Origin: Streptomyces sp. MBT53
GTDB lineage: Bacteria; Actinomycetota; Actinomycetes; Streptomycetales; Streptomycetaceae
Direction: 5' to 3'
DNA: 64,000 nucleotides
Assembly: GCF_016654115.1 (NCBI RefSeq)
Contig: NZ_JAEQAZ010000017.1
Coordinates: forward strand, 1-64,000
In this document: one piece after another, positions 9,387 through 36,689 of the stretch
Numbering within the stretch: position 1 is the stretch's first letter
Layout: each line of letters opens with the position of its first letter
Translations under genes and position numbers: made by a program
The notes under the pieces: model-generated
Databases searched by the model: none
Told to the model about the DNA's origin: nothing
What the model saw: the letters and a program-made list of their open reading frames with translations, nothing else

Positions 9387-9405
9387 GGGCCTGACGTACA
9401 GGCCC
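9387..9405. terminator. Bidirectional hairpin between convergent genes
   Basis: GGGCCTG at 9387-9393 pairs with CAGGCCC at 9399-9405 around ACGTA. It sits between the permease stop (9357) and the stop of the opposing gene (9405), the usual place for a shared terminator. Confidence 0.6.
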
Positions 9406-10142
9406 TAGCTGGCCTTGGCGCCCTCCAGCGCGGTCACCGCTTCCTTCGCGGCCTTGATCGCGCCCTTGTTGATGACGTCCGTGCTCGGCGCCTTCTTGTT
9501 CTCGAAGTCGCTGCCGTTGTAGGTGATGGTCACCAGCGCGTTGCCCGCGCGGACGACGACCGTGCCCTCACGCGTCTGCTGCTTGTCCTCCGTGGTGAGG
9601 TTCACGATGGAGTAGGCCGCGTCCCCGAGCCCGGGCACCACCCCGCCGCCGCTCTTCTCCGTAGTCGTCTCGGTGTACGACTTTTTCGCCGCTTCGTCCG
9701 ATTCCGTGATCTCGTACGACACGTCGAGCCAGCGGTAGTCGTAGCCCTTGAGCGCGTTCCACGAGCAGGTGCGGCGCACCTTCGTGTCCGTCGACGGGAT
9801 CTCCTTGCCGGCCGTCTTGGCGCCCGGAACCAGTGACTTGAGCGTCGCCACCGTCACACTTCCGCACGGGGCGGGGGACGTGGAGTACGCCTTGACCACG
9901 GGCGCCGTCGACGGGGCTGAGCTCCCGGACGAGGAGTCGGACTCGGGCGTCGCCTTGTGATCGGCGGTCGTCGTCGCGGCGAACGGACCGGACGTCAGGG
10001 CCCAGCCCATCGCGGCGAGCACGACGACCGGCGACAGACGCGCGGTGAGAGCGAGCGGCAGAGGTAGAGAACGCAAGTCGCACTTCTCGTGGGGGAAGGG
10101 TGCGGAGCGGGTCCGCACTGCGGACAGGAACGTCAGTGTCAC
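9405..10142 (-). CDS. Membrane-anchored or secreted protein, DUF3558-like
   Basis: A 245-residue protein with a basic N-terminus, one hydrophobic segment (ARLSPVVVLAAMGWALTSG, about residues 34-52), a Ser/Thr/Pro-rich linker, and an extracytoplasmic domain of about 165 residues. That domain begins SPAPCGSVTVATLKSLVPGA and contains a second cysteine (RRTCSWNA), suggesting a disulfide. This layout is like the DUF3558 solute-binding-like proteins of actinobacteria; the assignment is tentative. The GTG start at 10142 has AGGGAG four bases upstream; a TTG nearer the hydrophobic segment is an alternative. No lipobox cysteine is seen. No clear functional partner is adjacent. Confidence 0.65.
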   Translation of the reverse strand: MTLTFLSAVRTRSAPFPHEKCDLRSLPLPLALTARLSPVVVLAAMGWALTSGPFAATTTADHKATPESDSSSGSSAPSTAPVVKAYSTSPAPCGSVTVATLKSLVPGAKTAGKEIPSTDTKVRRTCSWNALKGYDYRWLDVSYEITESDEAAKKSYTETTTEKSGGGVVPGLGDAAYSIVNLTTEDKQQTREGTVVVRAGNALVTITYNGSDFENKKAPSTDVINKGAIKAAKEAVTALEGAKAS

Positions 10143-10253
10143 ATGACTCCCTGTGAGGCGGAAGTGTGAACTCGCTCCGTGCCTGTGCGGTGACAGTGCC
10201 TGACTGTGGACGCGTTGTGTGTCCTCTTATGTCCGTCCTCCTGTGTCCACGTG

Positions 10254-11249
10254 TCAGGTGCGAGCGGCCGGCACCCGCATCGTCGTCTCGATCCGTTCGA
10301 CGGCGGCGAACGCCCCGTACGCGACGAGCCGCACGAGACTCGCGTCACTCCGCGACGGCTCCCGCCAGGCGGCCACGTCCTCCTCCGTTATCCGGTACGG
10401 CGCGAGCGCGGCCAGTACCGCCAGTCGCGCCGCCGGCCGCTCCCGCCGGTTCGGGAAGCCGCGCAGCACGACCGGCGGATGCGATCCGTCCCAGGCCCAC
10501 AGCGTCTCCCGTACGAGGGTCAGGTCGTCCGTGTCGAGAAGGTCCGCGCCCGCGAGCGCCGCCGTGCGCAGGGCGTCGTAGGCCGGGCCCACCGGGGTTC
10601 CGGCCGCCCAGCCAGGGCCGGGGCCGGGCGTGTCGAGCAGGGGGAGTGCCGCTCCCGGTACGGCGCTGCGGCGCACGGTGCGGGCCACGCTGCGGCCGGC
10701 GAGGCTGCGTACGGCCCGGAACCGCTGGGCGTTGCCCGGCAGCAGCTGCTCGGTCAGCAGGGCCGACACGATGCGGTTGATGAAGTGGAAGGCGAGCGCG
10801 GTGCCGAGGTAGGCGGGTGCCTGCTCGGGCGGGAACGGGTACGGCGCCAGGTCCGCGCCCGGGACCCGGGTGCGGCGGCCCCAGTCGAGCACACGGGCGT
10901 GCTCCTCGTCCTCCGGTGTGCCGCCGCGCGCCAGGTGCTCGGCGAGGGCGTGGTCGCCGGTGGCGTGCAGCAGGACGGTGTGCGCGTCCGCGCAGAACGG
11001 GCACTTGTTGGCGAGCGAGACCCCGAGCGCGGCCAGCTCCTTGCCGGTGCGGCTGCCGTCGCCCGCGATCAGCGACTCCCGCATCAACGCCCAGGTGGGC
11101 GCCAGGAGTTCGGGCACGGAGGACAGGACCACGAAGGTCGGGGGCCGTTCGATCCCGAAGTCGACGGCGATCTGCTCGAAGACCTCGGCGGTGCGGCCGG
11201 TGGCGGACTTGGGCGACGGGGGCAGGGTGTGACGGAAGGGTGTGGGCAT
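10254..11249 (-). CDS. AhpD-like / carboxymuconolactone decarboxylase-family protein
   Basis: A 331-residue protein. Its first half is an AhpD-like domain with the redox motif CPFCADAHT (CxxC plus His, about residues 83-91) preceded by ALGVSLANK. Such domains reduce peroxides or act as disulfide carriers. The second half, from about residue 195, looks like a degenerate repeat of the same helical fold without the cysteines, which makes the protein about twice the usual length. The start is the ATG at 11249. It is divergent from the histidine kinase gene at 11416, which leaves a 166-base shared control region. The partner reductase is unknown. Confidence 0.75.
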   Translation of the reverse strand: MPTPFRHTLPPSPKSATGRTAEVFEQIAVDFGIERPPTFVVLSSVPELLAPTWALMRESLIAGDGSRTGKELAALGVSLANKCPFCADAHTVLLHATGDHALAEHLARGGTPEDEEHARVLDWGRRTRVPGADLAPYPFPPEQAPAYLGTALAFHFINRIVSALLTEQLLPGNAQRFRAVRSLAGRSVARTVRRSAVPGAALPLLDTPGPGPGWAAGTPVGPAYDALRTAALAGADLLDTDDLTLVRETLWAWDGSHPPVVLRGFPNRRERPAARLAVLAALAPYRITEEDVAAWREPSRSDASLVRLVAYGAFAAVERIETTMRVPAART

Positions 11250-31725: not shown

Positions 31726-33489
31726 TCAGGGCGTCTTCCAGAGGGTCAGCTCGGTGACGTAGTCGCGGGCCTCGACGCCGGAGGCGTCCTTCCGGACGAC
31801 GACGTCCTTGATGTCGAGCAGCGCCAGGTTCTTCTCGTCGGTGACGGTGCACAACAGTGTGCCCTTGGTCAGTTCCTTGCCCTGGTCGGCGTCGGCGAGT
31901 TGGGAGGGCAGCGCGTTCGCCGCCGCGCCCTGGGCGCACTGTTCCGGCGTGGGGCCCGCGCTCTTGCCCATGGTCGTCACGAGGTTCAGGGTGTGGGCGG
32001 TGCCCCACTCCGCGTACTGCAGCTCGGCCCCGGTCGTCGAGCTGGAGGCGTGGGTGTCGATCCGCGGTGCGTCCAGGTCGACGTTGGTGTACGAGCTGCG
32101 GCCGGTCGTGAACTGGGCGCGCAGGGTGAGGGGTTCGGCCTTGAAGACCGTGGTGTAGCCGTTCGGTGTTGCGGTCGTGTTCGTGCCTGCGCTCGTGCTG
32201 GGGGACGAGGCGGTCTTTCCGCCGCCTCCCTGTGCGGCGGTGTCCTTGCCCTTGTCGTCGTCGCGGGTGAGGACCCAGGCCGCGGTGGCCACAACCACCA
32301 CGGCGAGCGCGGCGGCGCCGACGACCAGCGGGGTTCGCCTGCGGGTCGGTACCGTCGGTACCGAAGCGGAAGCCGAAGCCGAAGCCGGGGGCGCCGGGTC
32401 GGCCGGGGGCCGGGGCGGCCGTGTCGGGGCATGCTGCGTCGGCTCGCCGGGCCCCGACCCCGGTACGTGGGTGGGTGTGTACCCGTCGGGCGGTACGGTC
32501 GTCGCGCCGGCCGCACCCGCACCCGTGGAGGCACCCGCGACGCTCACATCGCCGCCCGACACCCCCTCCTCAAGCGCGAGTTGCTCCTGCCGGGCGATGT
32601 CCTCCGCGACCGCGGCGGGCAGCCAGCCGGTGAAGTCCCGCAAGGGGCGGCCCGCCGACTCCTGGCACAGGTCGGCCAGTTCGGCCGGGGTCGGGCGGGC
32701 AGCCGGGTCGGCGATGAGGGTGCGTTCCAGGATCGTGCGCAGCGGCTCGGGGTACGAGGACAGGTCCGGTGGGCGGAACTCGGTGTTGGCGATCTTCGTG
32801 GCCAGCGTGATGGCCCCCGAGTCGCCGTACGGATGGCGGCCGGTCGCGGCCACGGCGGCGATCAGGCCGAGGGAGAAGACATCGGCGGCCGGGGTCTGTT
32901 CCTGGCCGTTCGCGTGCTCCGGCGACATGAACTGCGGGGTGCCGATGAGCCCGCCGCTGCGGGTGAGCTGGGTCGCGTCGGCGGCCCGTGCGATGCCGAA
33001 GTCGATGATCCAGGGGCCGTCGGAGCCGACGAGGACGTTGCTCGGCTTCATGTCCCGGTGGATGACACCGGCCTTGTGCACGGCCTGCAGCGCCTCCGCC
33101 GCGCAGCCGGTCAGCTGGAGCACCGTGGGCAGCGGGAGCGTCCCGTACCGGGCGAGGACCCGGTCCAGGGCGAGGCCGGGGACATAGACGGTGGCGAGCC
33201 AGGGCTGTGGCCCGGTGGTGTCGTGGTCGACGACCGGGACGATGTGGTAACCCTGCACCCGGCGGGCGGCGGCCGCCTCCTGCTCGAAACGGCGGCGGAA
33301 CTCCTCGTCCTCGGCGTACTCCCGGCGGATCACCTTCAGGGCGACCGGCTGGTTGCCGCGGGTGCGCGAGAGATAGACGGACCCCATGCCGCCCTCGCCG
33401 ATCCGGGCGAGCAGTCGGTAACCGGCCACGTCCTGCGGGTCGTCGGGACCCAACGGTCTCAAGTGGCCAGCGTTTCCAGCGTCGTTCAA
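31726..33489 (-). CDS. Membrane Ser/Thr protein kinase (PknB-like)
   Basis: A 587-residue Hanks-type kinase. The kinase domain covers residues 24-280: glycine loop GEGGMGSVYL (31-40), ATP lysine K52, catalytic HRDMKPSN (144-151), DFG at 163-165, and GTPQFMSPE in the activation segment. A juxtamembrane region rich in Pro, Ala and Ser precedes one membrane helix (about 387-407, TPLVVGAAALAVVVVATAAW). The roughly 180-residue extracellular domain has no PASTA repeats that I can see and begins with a Gly/Ser/Thr linker, so its ligand is unknown. It is divergent from a gene for an FHA-domain protein, which is the natural type of partner for a Ser/Thr kinase. Confidence 0.93.
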   Translation of the reverse strand: MNDAGNAGHLRPLGPDDPQDVAGYRLLARIGEGGMGSVYLSRTRGNQPVALKVIRREYAEDEEFRRRFEQEAAAARRVQGYHIVPVVDHDTTGPQPWLATVYVPGLALDRVLARYGTLPLPTVLQLTGCAAEALQAVHKAGVIHRDMKPSNVLVGSDGPWIIDFGIARAADATQLTRSGGLIGTPQFMSPEHANGQEQTPAADVFSLGLIAAVAATGRHPYGDSGAITLATKIANTEFRPPDLSSYPEPLRTILERTLIADPAARPTPAELADLCQESAGRPLRDFTGWLPAAVAEDIARQEQLALEEGVSGGDVSVAGASTGAGAAGATTVPPDGYTPTHVPGSGPGEPTQHAPTRPPRPPADPAPPASASASASVPTVPTRRRTPLVVGAAALAVVVVATAAWVLTRDDDKGKDTAAQGGGGKTASSPSTSAGTNTTATPNGYTTVFKAEPLTLRAQFTTGRSSYTNVDLDAPRIDTHASSSTTGAELQYAEWGTAHTLNLVTTMGKSAGPTPEQCAQGAAANALPSQLADADQGKELTKGTLLCTVTDEKNLALLDIKDVVVRKDASGVEARDYVTELTLWKTP

Positions 33490-33630
33490 GATGATCGGCC
33501 CCCCTCGCCAGGCGAGTGATCGTACCGGTGCAACCCGGTCATCCGGAAGGGCCCGAGGAGATCAAGGAATCAAGGCGAAGTTCGGGGAGAATCAGGGCAG
33601 TTGACGGTCACGTCGGACGGTGAGGCGCGC

Positions 33631-34776
33631 ATGGAACACCACCTGGTCCCTTCGGCGGAGGGCGCCGACTATCTGCTGGAACTCTCCAACGTCGTACGCC
33701 AGACCTCCATCGGCCCCCGAGGACCGCGCTCGCTGCGCCGACTCGACCTCGTCCTGCGGGCGTTGACGGAACTCACGGGGGACCCCGATGTCTCCGTCTA
33801 CCTCGTCGCCGACACCAGTCTGCTGGGCGGGCACCGGGAGTTCGGCGATCCGGCCGAGGTCCGGCGGCTGCGCCGGTGGGTGGCCGAGGGGCTGGTCGAG
33901 GAGGTGGACGACGCCGACGAGCGCGTCCTGGACCTGGCGCGGATGACCGGTACCCGGGTCGTCACCGGGGACCAGTACGTCGACCATCGCGTGGAACACC
34001 CGTGGATCCAGGGGAACACCTGGCAGTTCCTCAGACCCGAGCCCCGCCCCGACGGCTCGGTCGCCCTCGTGGCCATGGACATGGGCGTGCGCACGGAGGC
34101 CGAGATCTCCTACCGCATGGAACTCGCGGCCCTGAAGAAACAGGGCCTGCTCGGCCCGGCCCGCACCCCGCTGACCGAGGTCGTCATGCGCAACTGGCGC
34201 TGCCCGGAACCCCGTTGCACGCTCTACGACGTCCACCGGGGTGACCGCGTCCTGCTGCCGCGCATGCGGCGCGGTGTCCCCACCTGCGAACTGCACGGCG
34301 CCCCGCTGGCCGACGAGGGGCCGAGGCCCGCCGCCGCCCAGCTCAAGGTCGTCATCGACCGTGTCTGCGTGGCCCGTTACACCCTCGCCGAGGGTTCCGA
34401 GGCCCATGTCGGACGGCTGCCGGGACCTGAGGGCATCGCCCTGCACAGTCTGCTGTCGCCGGAGGTCGCCGCGCGGGTCAGCCGCCGGCATGTGGCGCTC
34501 TCCGCGCGGGGCGGGACGCTCCTGGTCCGAGATGTCAGCACCTACGGGACACGGATGCGCGGCGCCGGCCGTAGAGGTGTGCCCGGCCCCTGGGAGACGC
34601 TGCCGCCCGGAGTGGACCGGTCCTTTCGGCCCGGCGACGAGGTCGAACTCGCCCCCGGGGTCGTGCTCGTCCGCAGCGGCCGGCGTTTCCCCGCCGAACT
34701 CGCCGACGCCTGGCGTACGGAGGCCGGCGGGACCGTCGTACCGCCGGCCGCTGTGGCACCCACACGACGGGTCTGA
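33631..34776 (+). CDS. Predicted PIN/NYN nuclease - zinc ribbon - FHA fusion
   Basis: A 381-residue protein. Residues 10-135 resemble a PIN/NYN (Zc3h12a-like) nuclease domain. LLELSNVV stands where the family has the DG(S/A)NV start. VSVYLVADTSLL (D61) follows, and then DDADERVLDLARMTGTRVVT with GDQYVDH (D114, D118). A likely zinc ribbon follows (CPEPRC at 191-196, C219, H222). The C-terminal FHA domain (about 240-350) has GRLPGPEG, SRRHVAL and DVSTYGTRMR, the phosphothreonine-binding signature. I infer RNA cleavage controlled by threonine phosphorylation, with the divergent kinase as the obvious candidate. The first acidic residue is Glu (E17) rather than Asp. The ATG at 33631 (GTGAGG before it) is preferred; a TTG at 33601 is the alternative start. 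Confidence 0.78.
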   Translation: MEHHLVPSAEGADYLLELSNVVRQTSIGPRGPRSLRRLDLVLRALTELTGDPDVSVYLVADTSLLGGHREFGDPAEVRRLRRWVAEGLVEEVDDADERVLDLARMTGTRVVTGDQYVDHRVEHPWIQGNTWQFLRPEPRPDGSVALVAMDMGVRTEAEISYRMELAALKKQGLLGPARTPLTEVVMRNWRCPEPRCTLYDVHRGDRVLLPRMRRGVPTCELHGAPLADEGPRPAAAQLKVVIDRVCVARYTLAEGSEAHVGRLPGPEGIALHSLLSPEVAARVSRRHVALSARGGTLLVRDVSTYGTRMRGAGRRGVPGPWETLPPGVDRSFRPGDEVELAPGVVLVRSGRRFPAELADAWRTEAGGTVVPPAAVAPTRRV

Positions 34777-34782
34777 CCGCAG

Positions 34783-34814
34783 AGGGGGGTCGGCGTGCCA
34801 CCGCCAACCCCCCT
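34783..34814. terminator. Bidirectional terminator hairpin
   Basis: AGGGGGGT at 34783-34790 pairs with ACCCCCCT at 34807-34814, with an inner GGCG/CGCC extension. It sits between the convergent FHA-protein and peptidase genes. Confidence 0.65.
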
Positions 34815-34829
34815 TCCGCCGGCCGATGA

Positions 34830-36689
34830 TCAGCCGATGATGCGGTGTGTCGTCCAGAACGAGGTCAGGTCCGTGGTCGTCGCGGCCTGGGCCGCCGCCT
34901 TGAACTCGGCCGTGGTCGAGACGCCGTACCAGTGCGAAGTGGCGTAGTCCTTCAGGAGTTTGGCCATCACCGTGTCACCGAGGGTGCGGCGCAGGTCGTG
35001 CAGGGCGCACTTGCCGTAGCCGTAGACGACGGTGGAGTAGCGGGACGAGTGGGCGTCCCAGTACGCCATCGAGTTGGTGATGTTCTCCGCCGAGGACGCC
35101 CAGGAGACGCTGTTCCAGCAGTTGGTGCCGGTCAGGCCCTGGGCCAGGTCGGTGGCGTAGTCGGTGAACGCCTCGTCCAGCCAGGGGCTGTTGTACTCGT
35201 CGTCGCCGACGATGCCGTAGAACCACTGGTGGCCGATCTCATGGGTGAGGGCCGTGGTGCTGACCAGGTCGAGGACGAAGCCGGGGTACTCCATGCCGCC
35301 GAACCAGAAGTTGTTGTCGATGACGGCGTCCAACTCGCCGTACGGGTAGGCCCCGAAGCGGCCCGCGTGGGCGTCGACTGCTGATTTGGCCGTGGTCAGC
35401 ATCGACTGGGCGTTGGCCGAACTGATGCCCGTCACCGAGTAGATGTTGATCGGGGTGCCCGCCGTCGACGTACCCGAGATCTTGGTGAACGGGCCCGCCG
35501 CCCACGCGAAGTCGCGGACCTTGGAGGCGGTGGCCGTGGTGATCGTGCGGCCGCTGGAGCCGGCGGTGTCGACCGACGCGCCGGTGGCCGGGACCAGCAG
35601 GGTGGTCGGGTGGTCCAGGGTCACCTTGAAGTCGGCGGCCAGGGAGTAGAAGGACTCGCCGTTGTTCGTGTACGGGTCCAGGTGCCAGCCCGAGCCGTCC
35701 TTGATCGCGAGGACCGGCAGCGCGTTGCCGATCATGCTGAACGCGCCGTCGTAGCCGAACCGGTCGGCGCCGCTGGGGACAGTGATCCCCAAGTCGAAGC
35801 CGATCGTGGTGGATTGGCCCTGCGCGAGCGGGGTCGGCAGCGCGATCTGGAGGGCCGTGCAGGCGACCGAGAGGGCGCCCGCGGTGCCGCCGGTGACATT
35901 GGTGACCGTGATCGGCGGGGCGGTGCAGGTGCCGTGGTAGTTGTCCCACAGCCGCAGGTACACCTCGGTCAGCGGAGTGGCCGAGGCGTTGGTGAAGGTC
36001 GTGCTCTCGTGGCCGGTCCAGACCGTGCCGGCGGTGTTGCTGCTCAGGCTCACGGTGTACGCCGGGGCGGCCGGTGTACGCGTCGAGTCGGCCGGCGGGG
36101 CGGTGTCGCCCGAGGTGTTGAGGGCGATGTCGTCCACGACGAAGCTCGTCTGGAGGCTGGAGTCCTCGACACCGGAGAAGGCGAGGCTCACGGTCTGGCC
36201 CGCGAACGACGACACGTCGAACGACTTCTGAACGTATCCGGTGGCCTTGTTCAGGTTCGAGTAGGTCGCCAGCGTCGTGCTGCCGATCTTCGCCGTGAGC
36301 TTGTCGTACGCGGTGGACGAGGTCGTCTCGGCGGTGTCGATGTGCAGCCAGAAGGTCAGCGTGGCGCTGGCGCAGCCGGACGGGATCGTCACGCTCTGGG
36401 AGAGCGTGTCGGTGTGCGTGCCGCCGGTGCCGTCCAGCCAGGCGAAGCTGGTGCCGCCGTGGGCGCTCTGCCCGGTGCGGCTGGTGATGACGGTCGTCGA
36501 GGACTGGGTCCAGGACGTGGTGCCGCTCTCGAAGCCGCCGTTGGCGACCACCTGCGCCGGGGCACAGGCGGCGGCCACGGGAGCCGCGTCCGGTGCCGCG
36601 GCGGCCGGGGTGACGGGGAGCGAGAGGGCGGCCACCGCGGCGACGGCGAAGACGCCGGCTGCGAGAGCCTTGTGGGGGGTCGGTCTCAC
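34830..36689 (-). CDS. Secreted M1-family zinc metallopeptidase with N-terminal beta-sandwich domain
   Basis: A 619-residue exported peptidase. The signal peptide is [20 protein letters not shown] and continues to AAAA near residue 26. A jelly-roll, carbohydrate-binding-like domain follows (about 35-190; [25 protein letters not shown]). The M1 N-terminal beta domain and catalytic domain have [11 protein letters not shown] (replacing GAMEN) and the zinc motif HEIGH at 483-487 with E506 18 residues later ([10 protein letters not shown]). It should cut N-terminal residues from peptides outside the cell. The GTG at 36689 has AAGGAG six bases upstream. It is divergent from the phosphate transporter gene across a region rich in repeats. 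Confidence 0.9.

Follow-up and report, generated by a model that had tools for sequence, protein, structure and literature searches.

Introduction

Most Ser/Thr kinases of Streptomyces have no known output. Regnase-like enzymes are known mainly as immune regulators of eukaryotes. Among actinobacterial FHA proteins, GarA/OdhI is small, carries an N-terminal ETTS motif and has no enzyme domain. The ETTS motif is treated in a paper on OdhI and PknG (PMC8546545), in which a further paper with an intramolecular switch in its title is also named. According to the accessible part of a further study, PIN domains are combined with FHA domains in vWA effector polypeptides of vWA-MoxR systems, and kinase-PP2C-vWA gene sets occur in actinobacteria (Kaur et al. 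2020, PMC7159879). The ArnA/ArnB set-up of Sulfolobus, as presented in the accessible sections of PMC6509490, comprises a zinc finger-FHA protein, a vWA partner and Ser/Thr kinases and acts in archaellum gene control. A pair of an NYN-FHA gene and a kinase gene is not described in the accessible parts of the openly licensed full-text literature on NYN/PIN, FHA, vWA/PP2C and kinase combinations, and nothing on it is contained in those of PMC8195603, PMC10853773 and PMC3482391. Here we describe such a pair, found in a stretch of 64,000 nucleotides from Streptomyces sp. MBT53 which is referred to as the window in the following.

Results

The gene and its surroundings

The gene for the NYN-zinc ribbon-FHA protein extends from an ATG at position 33631 to a stop codon ending at 34776 (33631..34776, plus strand) and encodes a product of 381 amino acids. 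An earlier note on this DNA had placed the start at 33490. In relatives, the similarity begins at the Met encoded by ATG 33631, and some of them carry a stop codon a few codons upstream of it. Thus, the gene starts at 33631 and not at 33490, and positions 33490..33630 form the intergenic stretch between this gene and the divergently oriented kinase gene. No sigma-70 consensus promoter was detected in 33400-34900, and the stability of RNA structure in 33490-33630 was not above that of shuffled sequences (z 1.11). The six other neighbouring genes in the window are ordinary; by Pfam they encode a FAD oxidoreductase, a macrodomain protein, an M1 peptidase, a phosphate transporter, an inositol monophosphatase and a PPK2, and a scan of these six gave no match to vWA or PP2C at E<=1e-5. 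The macrodomain gene (PF01661, 31171-31689) is convergent with the kinase gene, and its family is absent among the neighbour clusters that are kept in many loci.

Fold and active site of the N-terminal domain

The earlier note had compared the N-terminus with Zc3h12a-type RNases, and this likeness is supported at the level of both profiles and structure. The NYN/PIN-like ribonuclease domain comprises residues 10-150 (33658..34080, plus strand) and contains E17, N20, D61, D96 and D114. The structure predicted for residues 1-242 has a mean pLDDT of 90.8, and the 26 PDB chains that match the model with E<=0.001 all belong to ZC3H12A/B/C or to the plant PRORP RNases. Re-alignment of the model (VIA) yielded Z scores of 12.4 for PRORP2, 11.4 for ZC3H12C, 11.3 for Regnase and 10.5 for KHNYN, followed by the nuclease chains of human mitochondrial RNase P (8.0 to 6.9) and by FEN-type and other PIN folds (<=6.9). 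In the structure alignment with MCPIP1/Regnase, residues 10..150 of the model pair with residues 134..281.

The assignment to the NYN domains needed wider profiles in addition to the fold. Single-sequence searches of Pfam, NCBIfam, PADLOC and the PDB sequences with the window protein returned a sub-threshold FHA match alone, without a Pfam match to PF11977 (RNase_Zc3h12a). PF11977 also found nothing in the window's own genome, so that database annotation alone would miss the NYN domain. At E<=1, PF11977 matched five of the 41 aligned proteins described below. The best match (5.6e-5) was to the second NYN-FHA protein of locus L051, which is matched weakly by FHA as well and was, among the scores seen, the only one to pass the cut-off (23.4 vs 23 bits). 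A profile of ten family members retrieved no NYN structure from the PDB sequences at E<=10; it gave the PIN toxin VapC6 at 1.5 and reached FHA structures weakly. In other actinobacteria the same profile found matches to the N-terminal domain only (loci L074-L077 and L080), with E values of 2e-8 to 2e-6 for each genome and of 3e-10 to 4e-8 when a small local set was searched. Of these NYN proteins, the four that were scanned exceeded the PF11977 cut-off (E 2e-10 to 7e-7). The window protein was also retrieved by a profile of the second NYN-FHA type (E 1.3e-10). With a 17-row profile of the window and related NYN domains, ZC3H12C, ZC3H12B and ZC3H12A (2e-6 to 4e-5; ZC3H12C at 2e-6 and ZC3H12A at 9e-6) were matched in the PDB, together with KHNYN (1.5e-4 and 3.7e-4) and PRORP2 (0.0037). 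The reading as a simple VapC-type PIN toxin was discarded, as VapC6 appeared only weakly with the 17-row profile (E 0.096). The NYN proteins of L074, L075, L076, L077 and L080 are related to the nuclease domain of the window protein; some have an S1 domain and Lys-rich tails.

Conservation was assessed in an alignment of 41 rows, i.e. the window protein, proteins from 37 of 46 named loci and three proteins of a second type (38 first-type and 3 second-type rows). L027, L028, L030, L035, L036 and L049 were left out as near copies, as were L040 (internal TGA), L066 (truncated) and L070 (frame ends early). A further alignment drew on 36 chosen rows. D61, D96 and D114 are present in all 41 rows, N20 in 40, and position 17 is acidic throughout, with Glu in 12 rows, which are the clade of the window, and Asp in 29. 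In the profile alignment E17, N20, A95, D96 and D114 fall on what we take to be D141, N144, D225, D226 and D244 of Regnase; the codons of D96 and D114, which presumably correspond to D226 and D244 of Regnase-1, are located at 33916..33918 and 33970..33972 (plus strand). All 41 rows have Ala at position 95, so that one Regnase acid is missing, for which D61 may stand in. The acidic cluster D114/D118 named in the earlier note stands for its first member, whereas D118 is found in 23 of 41 rows; to judge from the alignment, D96 or D114 would be sensible positions for a mutant and D118 would not.

The protein is likely to have RNase activity. The alternative that the NYN domain has lost its nuclease function and serves as the RNA-binding part of a phospho-dependent adaptor would fit with Glu17 of the window's clade and Ala95 of all rows, both of which differ from Regnase, and with the distant relative L073, in which, judged by eye, most catalytic positions are lost. 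We consider it improbable, since the presence of D61, D96, D114 and an acid at position 17 in every one of the 41 rows argues for kept chemistry. The L073 gene (L124 8539-9690) encodes an FHA domain, a PTM tail motif and a degenerate-looking nuclease site and has no adjacent kinase gene.

Zinc ribbon and FHA domain

The Cys/His zinc site and the C-terminal FHA domain that had been read from the window sequence were both borne out by the relatives. The zinc ribbon comprises residues 187-231 (34189..34323, plus strand) with C191, C196, C219 and H222. C196 and C219 are present in 41 of 41 rows, C191 in 40 (His in the remaining one), and at position 222 His is found in 38 rows and Cys in the other 3. 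The FHA domain (residues about 235-354; 34333..34692, plus strand) contains the binding residues G261, R262, S284, R285 and H287. In the window protein it stays below the Pfam cut-off (E 0.016, 16 vs 20.7 bits), and PF00498 matches 20 of the 41 aligned proteins at E<=1, with a best E of 2.9e-6. A 19-row C-terminal profile of chosen rows, from which L062 was left out for its lost FHA residues, gave FHA domains on top of the PDB matches (best E 0.0014), with TB39.8 (Rv0020c), OdhI and GarA among them. The G, R, S, R and H of the binding site are invariant in this alignment; in the 41 rows GR is present throughout and S284, R285 and H287 in 40 rows each. The usual Asn before the Gly of the FHA NG/T motif is Tyr in the window protein. 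Taken together, the architecture NYN-zinc ribbon-FHA is close to certain.

Pairing with Ser/Thr kinase genes

Two patterns were run against 84,980 species genomes and yielded 46 named loci, a number which is a lower bound and in which two genomes are present twice. The loci are mostly from Streptomyces; the other hosts are Kitasatospora, Frankia, Nocardiopsis, Actinacidiphila, Acrocarpospora, Dactylosporangium and one metagenome-assembled actinomycete. A survey of the gene pair had been proposed in the earlier note, and a kinase gene indeed co-occurs in 42 of the 46 loci, directly adjacent in 38 and in four as part of a divergent operon together with vWA and second NYN-FHA genes. No kinase match was found within the locus stretch of the remaining four, L043, L046, L062 (decayed) and L066 (truncated). 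The kinase gene is divergent as in the window in 21 loci (including L034 and L045, whose open frames run on and whose kinase domains are divergent), directly upstream on the same strand in eight (including L054, which was counted from an ectodomain match alone at the start of its contig, and L058, whose kinase frame ends early) and directly downstream in nine. In six of the eight kinase-upstream loci (L052, L053, L055, L056, L057 and L070) the kinase stop is separated from the start of the FHA-protein match by 14-35 bases.

While the kinase stays, its type and the gene order vary among the loci. The ectodomain of the window's kinase, described below, has a match in all but one of the 21 divergent loci (the contig of L040 ends inside the gene) and in seven of the eight upstream loci; L052 has two tandem multi-span kinases and no kinase with a window-type ectodomain. 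Kinases without a predicted membrane span are found in L061 and L063-L065, where L065, the one scanned, has TPR and weaker Sel1 matches (Pfam), and other kinases without a predicted span in L067-L069 and L071. L044 has a WD40 kinase. In L050, L051, L059 and L060 a further kinase type is accompanied by a second NYN-FHA gene and a vWA gene (4/4), and a SpoIIE/PP2C-like gene was called in three of these operons and a coiled-coil gene in two; no span was predicted in the two kinases tested. The operon lies at about 3.7-9.0 kb in each of the four loci, on the minus strand and divergent from the first NYN-FHA gene, and it is possible that it represents a larger system in its own right. The outside signal postulated in the earlier note would thus fit only the lineages with the membrane kinase. 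Elsewhere the partners have no predicted span (TPR/Sel1, WD40, short soluble and vWA-operon kinases), so that the input is not generally extracellular, and an extracellular signal was dismissed as a general rule.

It might be argued that the pairing is due to neighbourhood hitch-hiking in related genomes and has no functional meaning, as many loci are closely related and share further neighbours, and as loci retrieved with two patterns make up a set which is neither complete nor independent. This we regard as very improbable and, like chance adjacency, as largely refuted by the persistence of the kinases through changing arrangements. The kinases stay while orientation, order and kinase family change (the six arrangement labels need nine changes on the 41-row tree, the least possible being five), and other neighbours do not persist. 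In a neighbourhood clustering of 59 sequences, with crude gene calls and some genomes present twice, 45 sequences included a kinase. The second most frequent neighbour family occurred in eight, which form a closely related group. Furthermore, with 40 kinase-domain matches over the 11.3 Mb of the window's genome, a kinase should rarely be a neighbour by chance (about 1% as a rough estimate). Thus, the NYN-FHA protein very probably works with a kinase.

The distribution also bears on an anti-phage function by abortive infection, where the kinase would sense infection and host RNA would be cleaved. This would be in line with the patchy presence, 12 of 199 genus genomes having any match (one of the 12, G126, with E 9e-4 over residues 269-380 only, is probably without the gene), and with a kinase-nuclease module amid otherwise changing surroundings. 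In addition, the window kinase matches the PD-T4-6 models of PADLOC, and vWA, PP2C-like and kinase genes adjoin in relatives, resembling the TerY-P triads as far as these are covered in the accessible part of PMC11090510. However, PD-T4-6 consists of kinase models, which also matched the kinases of L044 and L050 although these are unrelated; the match is through the kinase domain only and is not usable for an assignment to this defence system. PADLOC gave no match for the NYN-FHA, vWA or PP2C-like proteins submitted, searches of 72,556 plasmid records and 50,697 phage records gave no match to the protein (E<=1e-5), and an ectodomain sensor would be odd for the sensing of infection. We therefore consider abortive infection unlikely, with some room left for it.

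Several further copies were noted. L024 contains a very diverged NYN-zinc-FHA gene (9395-10498); its genome, G030, also holds a truncated window-type copy, and a divergent kinase gene is located about 5 kb downstream of the L024 gene. Streptomyces canus V4I20 has two very similar copies (L033 and L035) near opposite ends of a 10.5 Mb contig, perhaps in terminal repeats. The Streptomyces aurantiacus copy (L040, also L005 and L017) has one internal TGA, reflecting decay or a sequencing error.

The membrane kinase and its ectodomain

The kinase gene (31726..33489, minus strand, TTG start) encodes 587 amino acids. Residues 24-271 match Pkinase (E 1.5e-38), and hydropathy indicates a single membrane span at about residues 385-408. 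The ectodomain, residues 432-587 (31729..32196, minus strand), contains two invariant Cys and was modelled with a pLDDT of 90.4. Its Foldseek matches were poor (best E 0.016, TM-scores < 0.5). Upon re-alignment, the top eight structures were HmuY, PinO, BfrB, BfrC and related proteins with Z scores of 9.4 to 5.7, the next row being at 3.5; values of Z 7 to 8 are, however, common for models that lack a clear match. The ectodomain thus resembles HmuY haemophores with modest scores. The HmuY-like fold is familiar from haemophores of Bacteroidetes, and the resemblance is seen here on an actinobacterial kinase. Haem ligands differ within the HmuY-like family. No His or Met occupies an invariant or nearly invariant position in an ectodomain alignment of 20 chosen rows (L058, with a stop in the range, was left out), and therefore haem binding by the ectodomain is not supported. 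That the ectodomain might be a common Streptomyces domain was examined within the window's genome, where its own copy is the only match (E<=0.01).

A conserved threonine near the C-terminus

The fourth residue from the C-terminus of the window protein, T378 (34762..34764, plus strand), is a candidate phosphosite and FHA ligand which the earlier note had missed and which is new here. Thr occupies exactly this position in 27 of 38 proteins and in 15 of 22 representatives under 75% identity, and at nine other tail positions tested it was found in 0-7 of 38; a binomial p for this excess ignores relatedness. The tail Thr is preceded by an Ala/Pro-rich linker of varying length. Ten of the 11 proteins without Thr at the exact position have one elsewhere in the tail, as judged after the fact, and L062 has none. 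In the second NYN-FHA type, a Thr tail of this kind is absent. The residue is a plausible kinase substrate and FHA ligand.

L062 has retained neither the SRxH residues of the FHA domain nor the tail Thr, and no kinase match is present in its locus. As the decay of this protein is general (N20 is replaced by Asp and a stretch is missing), these losses are not a clean test of a link between Thr, FHA domain and kinase. L043 and L046 have kept the FHA domain and the tail Thr without a local kinase match, and their genomes contain five and eight other kinases, respectively, of the broad type of the window kinase (E<=1e-60).

The FHA domain might instead bind the autophosphorylated kinase, at the activation loop or in the Thr-rich segment before the span, and thereby hold the nuclease at the membrane, with a minor role for the tail Thr. 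FHA docking on PknB-type kinases is known, and the divergent-type kinases inspected have an activation loop of the form [QR]LTRSGG..GTP and a Thr-rich segment preceding the membrane span, with HAPTR motifs in close relatives. However, the protein is also paired with kinases of other families and with kinases that have no predicted span, and most of the kinase-pairing groups have retained the tail Thr. Docking thus appears to us rather unlikely as the main role of the FHA domain, and a role of the tail Thr as the switch is a reasoned proposal to which we give a little less than an even chance.

Discussion

In the work presented here, sequence and structure comparison identifies an NYN-zinc ribbon-FHA protein that has been accompanied in its evolution by Ser/Thr kinase genes, whose type and order change. 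Judged from conservation and structure models, the protein is most likely a kinase-controlled RNase effector. The fuller proposal, that the pair is a kinase-controlled ribonuclease module in which the tail Thr is read by the FHA domain as a switch, is in our estimation as probable as not. According to this proposal, the sensor of the kinase (the ectodomain in the window, other inputs in relatives) would fire, and the kinase would phosphorylate the C-terminal Thr of the NYN-FHA protein, T378 in the window. The FHA domain would then bind the phosphothreonine of its own tail or that of a neighbouring chain. This binding would alter the shape, oligomeric state or location of the nuclease and so switch RNA cutting. 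We lean towards phosphorylation turning the nuclease on, through assembly by FHA-phosphothreonine contacts.

Since the module is patchy and accessory, its purpose is likely a stress or defence response. Tentatively, it could be part of an undescribed signalling or defence system, in which a constant phosphothreonine-gated RNase of the NYN-zinc ribbon-FHA type, with a C-terminal Thr of its own, is plugged by different lineages into interchangeable Ser/Thr kinases that convert varied signals into RNA cutting. The corresponding sensors would, equally tentatively, be the HmuY-like ectodomain, multi-span membrane kinases, TPR/Sel1, WD40 and the vWA/PP2C operon.

Streptomyces genomes contain dozens of Ser/Thr kinases, with 40 kinase-domain matches in the genome analysed here. 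A kinase gene beside a gene for a nuclease with a phosphothreonine reader and a candidate phosphosite offers a directly testable output, namely RNA cleavage. If the proposal is true, a bacterial relative of Regnase under the control of a Ser/Thr kinase would add bacteria to the organisms with phospho-controlled RNA decay. Furthermore, the combination of one effector with changing kinase types is a natural experiment on the rewiring of signalling modules.

Comparison with known systems

The window protein shares the fold and the order of the active-site acids with Regnase-1/ZC3H12 and PRORP, and as in ZC3H12 a zinc element follows the NYN domain. It differs from these enzymes by its FHA domain and its pairing with a kinase, by A95 in place of Regnase D225 and by the extra D61, and its zinc site is of the C-x4-C..C-x2-H type, in contrast to the CCCH finger of ZC3H12. 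GarA/OdhI is similar in that an FHA protein is under the control of Ser/Thr kinases via a Thr motif outside the FHA domain, for which the window protein has a candidate Thr; here, this Thr is at the C-terminal end and a nuclease is attached. The ArnA/ArnB set-up, as far as presented in the accessible sections of PMC6509490, is like the extended operons of L050, L051, L059 and L060, but no nuclease domain is described there, whereas the window protein has an NYN domain. The vWA, PP2C and kinase genes of the TerY-P triads, in the accessible part of PMC11090510, have their counterpart beside the second NYN-FHA gene in L050, L051 and L059, whereas a kinase gene alone, without vWA or PP2C, adjoins the gene in the window. 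Going by the accessible part of PMC7159879, the nearest precedent is the PIN-FHA vWA effectors of the vWA-MoxR systems; these serve a vWA component, whereas the window protein is without a vWA domain and has a kinase as its partner.
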